From an uncultured bacterium (GTDB lineage Bacteria; Patescibacteriota; Saccharimonadia; Saccharimonadales; Saccharimonadaceae), in the NCBI GenBank assembly GCA_903866605.1, contig CAIPOF010000035.1:1-34933 (forward strand): DNA of 34,933 nt. Direction: 5' to 3'. The translations under genes and the position numbers were made by a program. This document shows, one piece after another, positions 4,057 to 34,528 of the stretch. The notes under the pieces are model-generated. The model was not told the origin of the DNA. It did not search any database and saw only the letters and a program-made list of their open reading frames with translations. How positions within the stretch are numbered: the first letter of the stretch is position 1; every line of letters starts with the position of its first letter.

Positions 4057-5544
4057 TTATTTGGCGAATTCAATGGCACGAGTTTCACGAATGACATTGA
4101 CTTTGATCGTGCCTGGATACTGCATAGTTGATTCAATCTTTACAGCTATATCACGTGCCAGCTTGATAGCACTCAAATCATCGACGTCTTTTGGACTAAC
4201 AATAATTCGGACTTCTCGTCCAGCGCTGATTGCGTAAGCTTTGTCAATACCCTTGAATCCGGTTGCTATGTTTTCGAGATCTCGCATACGTTCAGCAAAG
4301 TTTTCAGAACTAACATTACGGGCTCCAGGACGAGCTGTCGATAATGAATCGCAAACACGAACAATCAACGCTTCAGGTGTTGTAGCTTCGACATCATCAT
4401 GATGGGCTTCGATTGCATGAGCAATCTCTTCACTCATACCGTATTTACGGGCAAGTTCTGCCGCCAGATGGTGATGTTTGCCTTCCATTTTATGTGTAAT
4501 AGCTTTTCCGGTATCATGTAGCAAGGTTGCAGTTTTGGTAATACGGACGTCAGCACCAATTTCCTCGGCAATAAGTCCAGATAGTTGTGCCATTTCGACG
4601 CTATGAAGTAGTACGTTTTGACCGTAACTAGTTCGAAATTTCAGTTCGCCCAGCAGACGTAACATTTCCTTTGGAATACCGACTACACCAACTTCACGGG
4701 CGGCATCCTCGCCTGCACGATTAACTTCTTTGTTAATTTCAGTTTCGGCCTTGGCGACAACTTCTTCGATTCGCCCTGGATGGATTCGACCATCCTTCAT
4801 CAGCAGTTCCAAACTCATCCTGGCAATTTGTCGACGAACTGGGTCAAATGAACTTAGGATAATCATACCTGGCGTATCGTCAACTAAAATATCGACTCCT
4901 GTTGCACGTTGAAAAGCCTGAATATTACGGCCTTCTTTACCGATGATTCTTCCCTTCATTTCTTCGTCAGGAAGCTTGATGGCTGTGACTGTACGCTCAG
5001 CCGTAACTTCAGATGACATGCGCTCCATAGCAGTTACCAAGATTGTCTGTGCAATATCCTCAGCTTCTTCTTTGGCATCATTTTGCAATTTATTAATCAG
5101 CCCAATCATATCTTGTTTGATATCACGTTCGGTCATTTGCATCAATTTTTCAGCAGCGTCGGCTTTGGTAAGTTTGGCTACTTTTTCCAATTTTTCCTGT
5201 TGTTTGGTGCGAATTTCGCGGATTTCGTCTTTTAAATCTTCGACGCCTCGTTCCTCACCACGGAGTTTTTCGCTTCGTTTATCCAGCTCATCAATCTTTT
5301 TAACAATTGATGCTTCGCGTTCGGACAAACGTTCTTCGGTCTTTTTAAAATCTTTGCGACGTTCGTTTTCCAATTCCAGTACTTCGTCTTTGGCTTTTAA
5401 CAATATGTCGGCTGCCTTGGCTTTGGCAGTTGCCAAATCTTTGTCAATGTTGGACTTTGCGCTAGCTTGGCGGTTTTTTTCGTAAGCTACAGTACCGCCA
5501 ACTCCAGCAAGTACCGCAATTACGGCTATAATAATCTCTATCAT
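4057..5544 (-). CDS. rny: Ribonuclease Y
   Basis: N-terminal TM, coiled coil, KH (GRIIGKEGRNIQAFQRATGVDILVDDTPG), HD (LLHDTGKA); SD GGAAAGGA before ATG at 5544. Confidence 0.95.
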   Translation of the reverse strand: MIEIIIAVIAVLAGVGGTVAYEKNRQASAKSNIDKDLATAKAKAADILLKAKDEVLELENERRKDFKKTEERLSEREASIVKKIDELDKRSEKLRGEERGVEDLKDEIREIRTKQQEKLEKVAKLTKADAAEKLMQMTERDIKQDMIGLINKLQNDAKEEAEDIAQTILVTAMERMSSEVTAERTVTAIKLPDEEMKGRIIGKEGRNIQAFQRATGVDILVDDTPGMIILSSFDPVRRQIARMSLELLMKDGRIHPGRIEEVVAKAETEINKEVNRAGEDAAREVGVVGIPKEMLRLLGELKFRTSYGQNVLLHSVEMAQLSGLIAEEIGADVRITKTATLLHDTGKAITHKMEGKHHHLAAELARKYGMSEEIAHAIEAHHDDVEATTPEALIVRVCDSLSTARPGARNVSSENFAERMRDLENIATGFKGIDKAYAISAGREVRIIVSPKDVDDLSAIKLARDIAVKIESTMQYPGTIKVNVIRETRAIEFAK

Positions 5545-5704
5545 AGTAGTTCCTTTCCTCGCCAAGACCTTTGATGTTTATTACTAGTATAAGAGATGCT
5601 TGTAGTTTAACAGTCAGTCAGTCAGTGGCGTCGGTTTCAAAAAATATTCAGAGTCCATATTAGGACTGTATATATATTAGCCTTTTTTGTACAAAATGCG
5701 CAAG

Positions 5705-6091
5705 TTATTTTCTTGGAAAAGTAATATTTGCACCTCTTCCATAAAACGGAAGAACAATTTTTTCATTTTCGCCAGCCTTTAATTTAGCTAGAACTTCATT
5801 CTGCCAGTTATCTCCGCGACCACCAACAATTGGAATTTTTTGAGCATCAGCAATAGTGTTCATAACAGTCAAGCCAATGCGAATACCCGTAAAACTACCA
5901 GGACCTTCGAAAACTCCTATAGATGAAATATCCAACCAGGTTCTTTTTTGTTTTTTCAGTAATTTGTCTAAATGACTCATCAAGCCTTTTGCGAGCATTC
6001 TTTCGGATTGCCAGTCATCATCCTGACGCCAATTATCATCAATAAAAGTTGATTTGCATATTGGCGTACTGGTATCAATCAAAATAATCAT
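5705..6091 (-). CDS. tsaB: TsaB-like protein (short form)
   Basis: MIILIDTST..., GPGSFTGIRIGL motif; only 128 aa. Confidence 0.8.
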   Translation of the reverse strand: MIILIDTSTPICKSTFIDDNWRQDDDWQSERMLAKGLMSHLDKLLKKQKRTWLDISSIGVFEGPGSFTGIRIGLTVMNTIADAQKIPIVGGRGDNWQNEVLAKLKAGENEKIVLPFYGRGANITFPRK

Positions 6092-6546
6092 ATTTTTATT
6101 TTTCCCATTAATTTTCTGCTTGAATCACCCCCTGAATTAATTGTAATTTTTCTAGAATTTTCACCAACAACGCTAATCGAAATTGTTAACCTATCCTTGG
6201 GCAAAACACCACTTATGACTTCACCCCATTCTATAATAACAACCGTATTTTTATTCCCTAGAACTTCTTGGACCTCATTAGCCAAAATTCCTGCATCATT
6301 AAGCCTAAAAAAGTCATAATGAGAAAGAGTAATGTTGTCACGACCGTCGTATACGCGATTTATTGTAAAACTCGGACTTTGTATATAGTCATCAATTCCT
6401 AAACCAACAGCAATGCCTTTTACTAGTGTTGTTTTTCCTGAGCCAACATCACCGACTAATTCGATTATCTCTCCACCACGAAGTAATGAACCGAGGAAGC
6501 TCCCGATTTTTTTCATTTCCATTTCACTCTTTACCTCTACGGCCAT
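6088..6546 (-). CDS. tsaE: tRNA t6A biosynthesis ATPase TsaE
   Basis: Walker A GDVGSGKTTLVKG, SPSFTINRVY, HYDFFRL, IIEWGE; overlaps tsaB by 4 nt. Confidence 0.9.
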   Translation of the reverse strand: MAVEVKSEMEMKKIGSFLGSLLRGGEIIELVGDVGSGKTTLVKGIAVGLGIDDYIQSPSFTINRVYDGRDNITLSHYDFFRLNDAGILANEVQEVLGNKNTVVIIEWGEVISGVLPKDRLTISISVVGENSRKITINSGGDSSRKLMGKIKI

Positions 6547-6694: not shown

Positions 6695-8476
6695 ATGCGT
6701 ATTTCAGATGTCACCATGGTTAAGTTGCTTGAACGCAGTGGCGTAGCTAATGCGGAGCAAATAGATGCCCTGAAACAAGAGGCAGCTAGTTCAAAGCAGT
6801 CATTACAAGACATGGCTATCCAAAATGAGATGATAGACGACACAACGCTTGCCAAGGCTTTGTCTGATTATGAGCAAATACCATACATAGAAGTAGCCGC
6901 CCACGATATCCCATTTGAAACGCTTTTAAAAATACCTGAACGAATAGCCCGCCAATATAACGCAATATTATTCAAGATTGACGAAGATGGCACTAACCAT
7001 TTAGTTATGGATGATCCTGACGACATTCAAGCCGTAAACTTTATTGAAAAAGAAATTGGCACTAAAACAAAAATTTATATTACACCCCATGCAAATATTA
7101 TTTCTCTGCTTGATGCTTATCGTGGAGATGTAAATCAGGAATTAGAAGAAGTTATTGATATTCAACGGGCTGAGAATACCGAGAATGAAACCGTATCAGA
7201 TCAGGACATTGCTGAAAATTCACCAATTGCCAAGACAGTTAATCTGCTACTTGAGTCAGCTATTAAATCGCATGCTAGCGATGTACACATTGAACCTCGT
7301 GAATCATTCGTACAAATACGCTACAGAATTGATGGTATCCTAAAAGAAGTAAATAGATTACCTCCAAATGTATTGAATGCTCTTATCAGTCGTGTCAAAA
7401 TTCTTAGTAATCTTAAAATTGACGAACGTCGTGTCCCTCAGGATGGACGATTTAAAATAAAAGTCGCTGGAAAACAATACGCTCTTCGTGTTAGTTCATT
7501 GCCGGTTGCAGATGGTGAAAAGATTGTTATGCGTATTTTAGATGAATCCAATCAGGCAGTATCTTTAGAATCATTAGGCTATTGGGGCCAACCATTAAAA
7601 TCCATAACTGCAGCATTGACAGAAGCAAACGGAATGATACTAATTACGGGACCCACCGGTAGTGGTAAATCAACAAGTTTATTTAGCATTCTAACAATTC
7701 TAAATACTCCTAGTGTAAATATATCGACGGTCGAAGACCCAGTTGAATATAAAATACCCGGCGTTAATCAAACTCAAACCAATACAAAGGCTGGAATGAC
7801 ATTTGCCAACGGCCTAAGAGCACTTTTGCGTCAGGACCCAAATATTATTATGATTGGCGAGATTCGAGATAGTGAAACTGCAGATCTTGGTGTCCAAGCA
7901 GCTTTAACGGGTCACCTGGTATTCACTACTTTGCACACTAATGATGCTGCTACATGTTTGCCACGTCTACTTGACATGGGAATTGAGCCTTTTCTTATTG
8001 CCAGCACGGTAAGGGTTGTTATTGGTCAAAGGCTAGTACGTAAGCTTAACCATGAAACCAGACAAAGTTATCAACCAACCGAAGCTGAAAAGCAATTGAT
8101 TATCGGCATGTTCGGACTAAAAGCGAATCAAAACTTTAGTTATATTCACGAACTAGAGAAAAAGGCTGCAGCCGAAGGTGTCGGTGGCGACACACCACTA
8201 GGTACAAATGAAAATGGTATAATTAATTTGTGGCGCGCCGACCCAAATGATAATGACGAAGGCTCTTTGGGTGGTTATAGAGGAAGGGTTGGCATATATG
8301 AAGTTTTAAATAATTCTGTAGCTGTCCAAAAACTAATTGTAGCTAACGCGACTAGCAATGTAATCCAAAACCAAGCAATTGATGAAGGAATGTTAAAAAT
8401 GCAGATTGATGGGCTAATTAAAGCTATCCGAGGCGAAACAACCCTCGAAGAAGTAATAAGGGTAACGAAAGAATAA
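6695..8476 (+). CDS. pilB: Type IV pilus assembly ATPase PilB/GspE
   Basis: GTGSGKSTSLFSIL-type Walker A (ITGPTGSGKSTSL), DPVEYKIPGVNQTQ, LRQDPNIIMIGEIRDSETA, LTGHLVFTTLHTNDA. Confidence 0.95.
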   Translation: MRISDVTMVKLLERSGVANAEQIDALKQEAASSKQSLQDMAIQNEMIDDTTLAKALSDYEQIPYIEVAAHDIPFETLLKIPERIARQYNAILFKIDEDGTNHLVMDDPDDIQAVNFIEKEIGTKTKIYITPHANIISLLDAYRGDVNQELEEVIDIQRAENTENETVSDQDIAENSPIAKTVNLLLESAIKSHASDVHIEPRESFVQIRYRIDGILKEVNRLPPNVLNALISRVKILSNLKIDERRVPQDGRFKIKVAGKQYALRVSSLPVADGEKIVMRILDESNQAVSLESLGYWGQPLKSITAALTEANGMILITGPTGSGKSTSLFSILTILNTPSVNISTVEDPVEYKIPGVNQTQTNTKAGMTFANGLRALLRQDPNIIMIGEIRDSETADLGVQAALTGHLVFTTLHTNDAATCLPRLLDMGIEPFLIASTVRVVIGQRLVRKLNHETRQSYQPTEAEKQLIIGMFGLKANQNFSYIHELEKKAAAEGVGGDTPLGTNENGIINLWRADPNDNDEGSLGGYRGRVGIYEVLNNSVAVQKLIVANATSNVIQNQAIDEGMLKMQIDGLIKAIRGETTLEEVIRVTKE

Positions 8477-8478
8477 TT

Positions 8479-9714
8479 ATGGCAACTTTTTCCTATATAG
8501 CAGTTGATAACGCCGGTAAGGTGCTTAAAGGCAATTTTGATCAGTTAGATCGCGCTAATGCTATAGATGCGCTTATAAAACAAGGCTTCAAGCCCGTTAG
8601 TTTAAAAAAAACCAAGGAAAAAACGGAAAGTCAAAGTATCGGTTTAAAGAATATTTTGGGCGGAAATAAAGTAAAGCCAGATCAATTGGTTATGTTCACA
8701 CGCCAACTGAGTGCGATGATTGGAGCAGGTGTACCATTACTACGCGCTCTGACGGCTCTATCAACCCACCTTGCCGACAGTCCAGCTCTTAGAAAAATAT
8801 TAGAAGGTATAATTCAAGAAATTGAATCAGGTTCGACGTTTGGTGATGCTTTGGCAAAATATCCTAACACATTTAATGACATATACGTGAACATGGTTCG
8901 AGCTGGCGAAGCAGCCGGAATTCTTGAAGAAATACTTCAGCGTCTTGCCCTACAACAAGAAAAAAGTATGTCCATGCGTAAAAAAATTAAGGCTTCAATG
9001 GCGTACCCAATAGTGTTACTATCTATTACGGTGCTGGCTTTTTTTGGTCTTATGATTTTTATCATCCCACAAATTGGCAAAATTTTGACAGACCTTGGTG
9101 GGGCTGATGCAAAATTGCCGACCCTGACTTTGGTTATGTTAGGTATCAGCTCATTTATCACTAAATATTGGTACATAGTATTTGCGGTACTTGGTGCCAG
9201 CGTTTATGCTTTCATGCGCTATATAAAAACCAAGAAAGGAAAATATCAATTCCATTATATATTATTAAAAACACCAATTATCAAAAAAATCATCATGAAA
9301 GTCGCGGTCGCCCACTTTGCTCGTACCTTTTCAGCACTGATAGAAGCTGGGGTCGCAGTTCTTGAGGCACTAACTGTTACGTCTAGAGCTGTGGGCAATG
9401 CTATATTCGAAGAGGCTTTGGTAAAAGCAGAGGAAGAGGTAAAAAATGGCAAGACACTATCATCTGTTATGGAAGCCAATACATTGTTCCCGCCAATTAT
9501 TGCACAAATGCTTTTAGTTGGTGAAGAAACTGGACAAACTGATAAAGTACTGGTAAAAGTGGCCGATTTTTACGAAGAAGAAGTCGACTCAGCCATCGCC
9601 TCAATCAGTTCAATTATTGAACCAGCTATGATTGTAGTCATGGGATCCATGGTGGGGTTAATAGCAGCCAGCGTTATGCTACCAATAGCTAGCCTTTCGC
9701 AGAATATTAAATAA
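8479..9714 (+). CDS. pilC: Type IV pilus inner-membrane platform PilC
   Basis: T2SF domains (FTRQLSAMIGAGVPLLRAL; FARTFSALIEAGVAVLEAL). Confidence 0.94.
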   Translation: MATFSYIAVDNAGKVLKGNFDQLDRANAIDALIKQGFKPVSLKKTKEKTESQSIGLKNILGGNKVKPDQLVMFTRQLSAMIGAGVPLLRALTALSTHLADSPALRKILEGIIQEIESGSTFGDALAKYPNTFNDIYVNMVRAGEAAGILEEILQRLALQQEKSMSMRKKIKASMAYPIVLLSITVLAFFGLMIFIIPQIGKILTDLGGADAKLPTLTLVMLGISSFITKYWYIVFAVLGASVYAFMRYIKTKKGKYQFHYILLKTPIIKKIIMKVAVAHFARTFSALIEAGVAVLEALTVTSRAVGNAIFEEALVKAEEEVKNGKTLSSVMEANTLFPPIIAQMLLVGEETGQTDKVLVKVADFYEEEVDSAIASISSIIEPAMIVVMGSMVGLIAASVMLPIASLSQNIK

Positions 9715-9773
9715 ACATATACACCCTTAATAAGCTCATGCTATAATATCCTTAGAATTCAACAGTGGGCATT

Positions 9774-10829
9774 ATGACAAGATTATTTTATACAGATAAA
9801 CCAATTATAGGTCTTGATATCAGTAATACTGGTATTAAAGTTATGGCTATAGATATAAAAAAATGGCTTGTGCTTGGGTATGGGTCAATCGACTTAGAAC
9901 CAAATAAAGTTAAAAAATCACTCGAAGGCGATAGCACATACCTTGCAGATAATATACAATTGCTGATCAAAGAAAGGTTAATCGGTTCTCTTCCTAGCAA
10001 ACATGTTGCACTTAGCATTCCAACAGACCGCAGTTACTCTAGAACTTTTAGTCTACCAGCAAGTGTAAAGAATAAGCTAAAAGACGCTGTCGACCTTGAA
10101 GTTGATCAGTACGTCCCAGTTCCGGCATCAATGCTTTACATTGATTACCAGATCATCGAACGTAATAAAAAAGAGCTAACGATTCTTATGAGTGCAGTTC
10201 CACGCATGATAGTAGATAAATGTGTTGCGGCTGCCGAAAGTGCTGGTTTGCTTGTTAGTCTAGTCGAGCCTGGGATGAATGCTGTCACTCGTCTTATCAC
10301 TTACACAGAGGATGGACAACTCCCAAGCGTTGTCGTAGATATTGGTCCGGCTAGTACTGATATCGCCATTATAGACAATGGCTCAATACGCGTTACTGCT
10401 GGTTTAGAAATAGGTGGCAACACATTAACACTCGATATCGCCCGAAAATTAGGAATTACCCTAGAAAATGCGCATCAGTTAAAAGTACTAAATGGGCTCA
10501 GTGCTGGACCTCGTCAAGAAAAAATTAGGAATTCGATTGAACCCAGTCTTAAAAAAATTGCTGCTGAAGTTCAAAAAGTTATGCGTTATTATAATGAACG
10601 CATTAGCGACGATCGCAAATTAGAGCAATTACTTGTTGTTGGAAGTGGTAGTAATATGCCTGGTATCGGTGACTTTTTTACAAATGAGCTTACGATGCCC
10701 GCTCGTGTAGCGAGTCCTTGGCAAAAGCTCGATTTTGGCAAACTACCTGAACCAGCAAGACAATTTCGTCCAAGATATATAACAGTCGCTGGTCTATCAA
10801 GTGTTAAACCACGGAGCATATGGAAATGA
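9774..10829 (+). CDS. pilM: Type IV pilus assembly protein PilM
   Basis: Actin-like ATPase: IIGLDISNTGIKVMAI, VVDIGPASTDIAII, GGNTLTLDIARKLGI; ATG at 9774 or GTG at 9765. Confidence 0.9.
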   Translation: MTRLFYTDKPIIGLDISNTGIKVMAIDIKKWLVLGYGSIDLEPNKVKKSLEGDSTYLADNIQLLIKERLIGSLPSKHVALSIPTDRSYSRTFSLPASVKNKLKDAVDLEVDQYVPVPASMLYIDYQIIERNKKELTILMSAVPRMIVDKCVAAAESAGLLVSLVEPGMNAVTRLITYTEDGQLPSVVVDIGPASTDIAIIDNGSIRVTAGLEIGGNTLTLDIARKLGITLENAHQLKVLNGLSAGPRQEKIRNSIEPSLKKIAAEVQKVMRYYNERISDDRKLEQLLVVGSGSNMPGIGDFFTNELTMPARVASPWQKLDFGKLPEPARQFRPRYITVAGLSSVKPRSIWK

Positions 10830-33464: not shown

Positions 33465-33483
33465 AAATAGTCAAAGCGGTCAA

Positions 33484-33512
33484 CCCCGTTAGAGGCCTTG
33501 CCTCTAACGGGG
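33484..33512. repeat. Perfect 13-bp hairpin just after the FISUMP prepilin gene
   Basis: CCCCGTTAGAGGC-CTT-GCCTCTAACGGGG; 5 nt from stop; no immediate U-tract. Confidence 0.95.
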
Positions 33513-33517
33513 TCAAA

Positions 33518-33700
33518 TCAATTTCCCAGACAGCGCACCGACAACCCGTAGCCCTTGGCGCCCGCATCGCGGACCACCGTCGCGCCACCCGAGCCCAAGT
33601 AGCGCCTCCAAGCATAAGAGCTGGACTCCGAACTCGACCACAAGTACGCGCCCGACAACAGACTGCCGAAGGACCCGCCAGTATCGCGGAAGCCGGCAAG
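33518..33700 (-). other. Candidate DGR variable region (VR) at the 3' end of the prepilin gene
   Basis: GC-rich, A-poor segment (about 19 A in 183 nt on coding strand by hand count) encoding LAGFRDTGGSFGSLLSGAYLWSSSESSSYAWRRYLGSGGATVVRDAGAKGYGLSVRCLGN. Confidence 0.6.
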
Positions 33701-34528
33701 CGGTATGCTAAGTCCTGATGTGCCACCTATTTTGAGCTGAGTGCCTTGATTAGTGCCACGCCAGGAAGTACCGTCAGCCTTCGCTTGAGTCATGCCAAGT
33801 TGCATTTCAAGTATCTTCCAGTCGTTGTCGGATGGGATATGTGAACCGGCTGGACAGATGCCTTGAGCGCCTTCGGTTATAGTGTATTGCATAGCTTCGT
33901 TCCATTGATATAGCCCGCCGTAGGTTGTGCAGTTTGATTCAGTATCACTTTGACAGTATTTTTCTAATGTAGAATTATTAGTTTGAGCAGTTACACCCGT
34001 TATCATAGTTCCAACATTTAGATTGGCTTTAGCCCAGACTTGAGTGCCGATAGCAAGCCAGTTAGTTGGGTCTGTGGTAGCTAGTGAAGACATTAATACT
34101 GATGATGAATTATTAGTAATTGTGTAACTAGTATTACCATTAGCATTCTTTAGGCCAAATCCTTCAGGACTGGTAGCTACGCCTAGAGTTGAATACGTGA
34201 ATGTATTACCGTTACTTGGTTTTAGACAGTATTTAGTATCAGTCGTTGGGGTTGAATCACGTGGGCATTTATTTGAATCAAGGTCAACTGGATAATTCCC
34301 GTGGTCAATATAGTATAAGGTTAGTTGTTTTTTTGCACTGTTTAGGTCGGATTGGATAGAGGCTACTACGGCTTTTTGTGAGATGCCTGTATAGGAAACT
34401 ATGGTTATGGCAGCTAGGATGCCTATGATTACTATAACTACTAGGAGCTCGACGATGGTGAAGGCTGGGTGGTAGGTTGTTCCGCCGTAAGGCGAATGGC
34501 AGTTTATTTTTTTATTACTCATAATCAT
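33518..34528 (-). CDS. Type IV prepilin with C-terminal FISUMP (Fibrobacter major paralogous) domain
   Basis: HPAFTIVELLVVIVIIGILAAITIVSYTGI N-terminus; C-terminal YGGLYQWNEAM...QGICPAGSHIPSDNDWKILE...WRGTNQGTQLKIGG...WSSSESSSYAWRRYL...GLSVRCLGN. Confidence 0.88.
   Translation of the reverse strand: MIMSNKKINCHSPYGGTTYHPAFTIVELLVVIVIIGILAAITIVSYTGISQKAVVASIQSDLNSAKKQLTLYYIDHGNYPVDLDSNKCPRDSTPTTDTKYCLKPSNGNTFTYSTLGVATSPEGFGLKNANGNTSYTITNNSSSVLMSSLATTDPTNWLAIGTQVWAKANLNVGTMITGVTAQTNNSTLEKYCQSDTESNCTTYGGLYQWNEAMQYTITEGAQGICPAGSHIPSDNDWKILEMQLGMTQAKADGTSWRGTNQGTQLKIGGTSGLSIPLAGFRDTGGSFGSLLSGAYLWSSSESSSYAWRRYLGSGGATVVRDAGAKGYGLSVRCLGN

Follow-up and report, generated by a model that had tools for sequence, protein, structure and literature searches.

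Organization of the locus

The window analysed here is a stretch of 34,933 nt from an uncultured member of the Saccharibacteria, a tiny organism that is probably host-dependent. It contains genes for type IV pilus machinery (within 6695..10829) and, on the other strand and close to its end, the gene for a prepilin whose 3' end was examined as a target of a diversity-generating retroelement (DGR). The features referred to below are as follows.

6695-8476, plus strand: PilB-like ATPase; type IV pilus machinery, outside the DGR
8479-9714, plus strand: PilC-like protein; type IV pilus machinery, outside the DGR
9765-10829, plus strand: PilM-like protein; type IV pilus machinery, outside the DGR
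33483..33513, minus strand: hairpin with a 14-bp stem and a 3-nt loop, directly past the stop codon and within a 45-nt block that recurs unchanged after the C5 and C23 variable regions
33518..34528, minus strand: DGR target gene, encoding a 336-aa prepilin with a FISUMP domain at its C terminus (open reading frame and profile matches)
33519..33703, minus strand: variable region (VR), 185 nt; template repeat (TR) at positions 1842-2026 of contig C5 of the same genome
33519..33533, minus strand: candidate IMH at the 3' end of the VR (CTGTCTGGGAAATTG), where the TR reads CTGTCTGGAAAATTG (VR/TR alignment)
33527..34054, minus strand: FISUMP (Fib_succ_major) domain, residues 159-334 (PF09603, TIGR02145; domain model)
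34403..34465, minus strand: residues 22-42, with the prepilin cleavage/methylation motif (HPA/FTIVELL) and the first part of the hydrophobic helix (PF07963; helix 25-75 in the model)

The initial annotation, made from the sequence alone, had described a prepilin ending in a FISUMP-type domain, and profile searches bear this out. The N terminus of the open reading frame matches PF07963 (E 7e-5) and likewise TIGR02532 (class III signal, N-methylation motif, hydrophobic helix), and the C terminus matches PF09603 (E 1.5e-31) and TIGR02145 (E 1.5e-24), the latter being the HMM that had been suggested as a check; all four matches are above their cut-offs. Residue -1 is Ala, where Gly is usual. The end of the gene had also been called GC-rich and A-poor, and this is confirmed: on the gene strand, positions 33519-33703 have 65.4% GC and 9.7% A, as against 41.9% GC and 33.9% A in the remaining gene. 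This is the 185-nt stretch with the highest GC content in the window, and just 7 of 34,748 such stretches, all starting at 33519-33533, are at or above its value. A variable region at the 3' end had been proposed at 33518-33700; the region exists, with its limits corrected to 33519-33703.

Comparison of the variable region with its template

The VR was compared with the whole genome (814 kb in 71 contigs, 95% complete), and in these comparisons the contig of the window is labelled C35. Two matches were found on C5, one each on C19, C25 and C23, and a weak one on C44. One of the two on C5 is the near-identical repeat, differing at adenines, that the initial annotation had expected somewhere in the genome: in ungapped alignment 28 of the 29 mismatches between this TR and the window VR fall on TR adenines, which make up 46 of its 185 bases (Fisher p = 6e-20). 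The same is seen for the VRs on C5 (22/22 mismatches at TR adenines), C25 (24/25) and C19 (22/24); the C23 VR has drifted, with 22 of 45 mismatches at TR adenines. AAC/AAT codons in the TR number 15 in the frame of the gene, whereas the two alternative frames have 1 and 0. At 14 of these sites the window gene reads TTC, GAT, GGC, AGT, GGC, TAC, TAT, TAC, GGC, GGC, GTC, GAT, GGC and TAC, and the fifteenth, the last codon, is AAT in the TR and is kept as AAT in the window VR. The NNC/NNT codons listed in the initial annotation are those that are AAC/AAT in the template. Judged by these alignments, the last 185 nt of the window prepilin gene are a true DGR variable region. On C44 there is a complete prepilin-FISUMP paralog (L007, 1081-2007); its 3' end scarcely matches the TR, and it is therefore probably outside the service of the C5 template.

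Silent differences between the window pilin gene and its C19 paralog were found in 1 of 61 codons of the VR versus 39 of 124 codons in the remaining FISUMP domain (p = 3e-7), while 14 codons of the VR differ in the encoded amino acid. Ordinary positive selection spares silent differences, whereas overwriting from a shared template erases them, and their loss in the VR but not in the remaining domain therefore indicates, at the level of sequence, that the VR has been recopied from a template. Upstream of the VR, aligning C35 or C19 to C25 or C5 without gaps put the sequences out of register, and these comparisons were discarded.

The VR extends to the stop codon, and the 3' end of the TR, GGAAAATTG, is changed in each of the genome's five VRs, most commonly to GGGAAATTG; in a related genome (G007) there is a G-for-A difference at the same position. 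These differences fit an IMH/IMH* pair. Hairpins follow four VRs of the window's genome, three with the 14-bp stem in the shared 45-nt block and one with a different 11-bp stem, and none was found after the TR. The window hairpin has no T-run and was not scored as a terminator when intrinsic terminators were sought. A perfect hairpin after the VR was rejected as a general feature, as the search in relatives found none downstream of most VRs.

The retroelement core on contig C5

The initial annotation had placed the reverse transcriptase (RT) and the template beyond the window, and both were located on C5 of the same genome, together with a bAvd gene. The order on this contig of 2,952 bp is a VR-bearing truncated FISUMP gene, a gene for a 116-aa Avd, the 185-nt TR and a gene for a 418-aa RT. 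The RT carries IGNLTSQ and YVDD, in agreement with DGR-type enzymes, in which [ILV]GxxxSQ replaces QGxxxSP and YxDD is present, and it is the single match to RVT_1 in the whole genome. The Avd matches bAvd PF22296 above its cut-off (E 1.8e-13) and NF033474 below its cut-off. Viral relatives of the RT exist, the best being only 51% identical, and we do not claim a phage source for it.

Structure of the pilin and its predicted variable face

The model of the full-length pilin is weak (pLDDT 64) and has a single long N-terminal helix (25-75); the FISUMP domain modelled on its own gave a pLDDT of 90 and a pTM of 0.87. Compared with the PDB, the best match of the domain model was the C-terminal domain of Legionella Lcl (probability 0.96, E 0.03) and the later matches were mostly C-type lectins (E > 0.4), none of these being formally significant; significant matches were obtained to two FISUMP proteins of uncultured phages. 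No PDB sequence matched the pilin/FISUMP profile. Taken together, the model lends moderate support to a C-type-lectin-like fold of the window domain. Several variable residues alternate along strands in the predicted secondary structure, which is consistent with a location of the variable residues on one exposed face.

Related retroelements in Saccharibacteria

Orthologs of the RT are present in four congeners (72-93% identity), and the RTs of the pilin-Avd-TR-RT cassettes in the window's genome and its relatives form one clade with a support of 1.0. A full cassette with a 415-aa prepilin-FISUMP target, 16 of 16 mismatches being at adenines, is found in a metagenome bin (G007/L088, contig CAIUKF010000012), and another, with 11 of 13 at adenines, in Saccharibacteria clean1753 (L090, apparently the same contig as G417). 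HGW-Saccharibacteria-1 (G012, L089) has the cassette with the VR interrupted by a run of N. This assembly N-run lies within the VR of the DGR-linked prepilin (L070, contig C7, pilin reading frame 5203-6471) and might reflect strains that differ within the VR. Genome G026 has a TR and about nine more TR-like matches, including a second VR-Avd-TR cassette that lacks an RT (L072, contig C15, 2182-3205). The VR on its contig C8 shares the SSQESS change with this cassette, and the RT-less template may therefore be served by an RT on another contig. In G018, which has the closest orthologous RT, RT and Avd are intact and the TR position (L068, contig C5, 5686-5870) is A-poor, with 30 A versus 45-48 in three genomes and 46 in the window's genome. 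No other TR copy was found in G018, and its TR position may reflect either a template overwritten by VR-like sequence or a collapse in the assembly.

Beside relatives of the RT in genome and viral collections, prepilins were the target in 2 of 133 full-length cases after inspection, both in Saccharibacteria; these targets had been found by script, and the count depends on a motif pattern and on automatic selection of the longest reading frame spanning the VR. VR ends resembling FISUMP are frequent in the remaining targets, joined to other N termini. L111 and L322 were rejected as prepilin targets, the motif being internal or within an ordinary membrane helix. Across the class, an RT was found in 79 of 394 genomes, mostly of one genus (11-row model, E <= 1e-60), and the targets sampled were mostly not prepilins. 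Two genomes of a sister genus have prepilin targets with a different variable domain:

L308 (G155), 7306-7431: prepilin DGR target with an FGE-sulfatase-type variable domain, 9/9 mismatches at adenines
L310 (G171), 7049-7173: prepilin DGR target with an FGE-sulfatase-type variable domain, 12/12 mismatches at adenines

Their RTs belong to a different clade, the last common ancestor of which with the FISUMP-pilin clade is the root of the 121-tip tree, and two DGR lineages therefore seem to have taken up prepilins as targets.

Discussion

Taking the explanation as a whole, we consider it probable that the window prepilin gene ends in a remote VR, that the core of the DGR concerned (Avd, TR and RT) sits on C5 and that this DGR diversifies FISUMP prepilins into retargetable pilus adhesins. 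The copying steps follow known DGRs: the TR would be transcribed, RT and Avd would make a cDNA with misincorporation opposite adenines, and this cDNA would replace the VR in one or another of about five FISUMP prepilin genes, with the common 3' end of the VRs and perhaps also the downstream hairpin as guides. Because the template codons are AAY, about 14 residues, with a predicted location on one face of the putatively C-type-lectin-like FISUMP domain, would be randomised and the scaffold kept. Counting against this explanation are the shortness of contig C5 in a fragmented MAG, the Ala at residue -1 of the prepilin and the A-poor TR position in G018.

The diversified domain would ride on a type IV, probably minor, pilin, and the likely product is therefore a retargetable pilus adhesin. 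The prepilin family is large and modular in this genome (G000, 814 kb) and spread over many contigs; a search with the pilin gave 28 matches, mostly to the prepilin end, with several cut at contig ends. The PilB-, PilC- and PilM-like proteins of the window are likely the assembly machine. In Nanosynbacter lyticus, host binding is reduced when the minor pilin PilX2, whose C terminus bears an additional domain, is lost (PMC12206443). From this and from the pilus genes in the window we infer that a retargetable pilus adhesin for binding to a host or another surface is the most likely role. The FISUMP prepilins would then be assembled into a pilus and bind a ligand, and the window pilin would presumably be located at the pilus tip and act in host attachment.

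The DGR is presumably still active. It is unlikely, in our view, that the VRs were made by this DGR and are now the frozen products of an idle or decaying system, drifting like ordinary paralogs. The drifted C23 VR would agree with such a state, as would the A-poor TR position in G018, the TR cassette without an RT in G026 and the retention of FISUMP pilins in genomes without the RT; however, RT, Avd and TR are intact, and four VRs are almost free of non-adenine or silent change, which suggests that copying took place recently compared with the time at which their genes diverged. We give quite a low probability to the idea that the DGR is real and the prepilins are diversified mainly for evading phages or other surface-binding agents and not for host binding. 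A virus-host arms race has been raised for membrane-bound DGR targets (Roux et al., 2021; PMC8144416); however, C-type-lectin-fold DGR target domains are, as is generally known, binding domains in the cases studied (PMC8144416), and in a cultured Saccharibacterium host binding involves a minor pilin that carries an extra domain (PMC12206443). Moreover, the two roles are not mutually exclusive. The absence of a DGR, with the GC-rich and A-poor 3' end explained as an artefact of assembly or as an ordinary paralog domain that evolves fast or has undergone gene conversion, can be dismissed as highly improbable in spite of the many FISUMP paralogs of this genome and the contigs that often break inside them, since the mismatches are limited to adenines of a copy that adjoins a DGR-type RT and Avd, are seen in independent assemblies and show a specificity that plain conversion or selection would not yield.

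In the DGR of Bordetella phage BPP-1 the order is mtd - avd - TR - brt. The remote-VR DGR that we propose resembles it in the order of the parts on C5 (target VR, avd, TR, RT), the A-to-N change, the putatively C-type-lectin-like variable domain and the hairpin after some VRs, but it differs in that it lies in a cellular genome, targets a prepilin and has about five VRs across several contigs. DGRs are already known from CPR bacteria (PMC8144416), and the one described here shares with clade 2 of Roux et al. (2021) its cellular location in Patescibacteria and its C-terminal VR; however, clade 2 CPR targets typically have no recognised membrane or other domain (PMC8144416), whereas the window target has a clear prepilin N terminus. 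Likewise, Fib_succ_major is an established DGR target domain (PMC4159848), and 'putative pilin structures' have been mentioned for DUF1566 DGR targets (PMC6642488), so that both the domain and a pilin-like target have precedents; the published Fib_succ_major example is an Mfa2-type lipoprotein, whereas here the target is a saccharibacterial type IV prepilin with several VRs per template. PilX2 is likewise a minor pilin of a Saccharibacterium that carries a further domain at its C terminus, and normal host binding depends on it (PMC12206443), but this further domain is a beta-propeller and not a FISUMP domain. In a literature search of incomplete coverage, no paper was found in which the phrase 'diversity-generating retroelement' occurs together with prepilin or FISUMP. 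The apparent novelty is a family of type IV prepilin targets present in several copies in Saccharibacteria, with priority uncertain.

More broadly, DGRs of Saccharibacteria might form a specificity engine for type IV pili, in which a single template supplies a whole family of prepilin adhesins, two unrelated RT lineages independently use prepilins, with variable domains of FISUMP and of FGE-sulfatase type, and the rewriting of binding specificity outpaces the evolution of the remaining genome; for this wider proposal we regard the chances as evenly balanced. How ultrasmall episymbionts identify and bind their hosts has been described as largely unknown (PMC12206443), and a large survey left the identity and membrane-binding of CPR DGR targets open (PMC8144416). 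A prepilin-rewriting DGR would offer a concrete and testable answer for one lineage in the form of hypervariable pilus adhesins, with the adenine positions of the TR marking the exact residues for ligand-binding tests, and pilus-type protein ends rewritten in this manner could re-aim attachment to new host surfaces.
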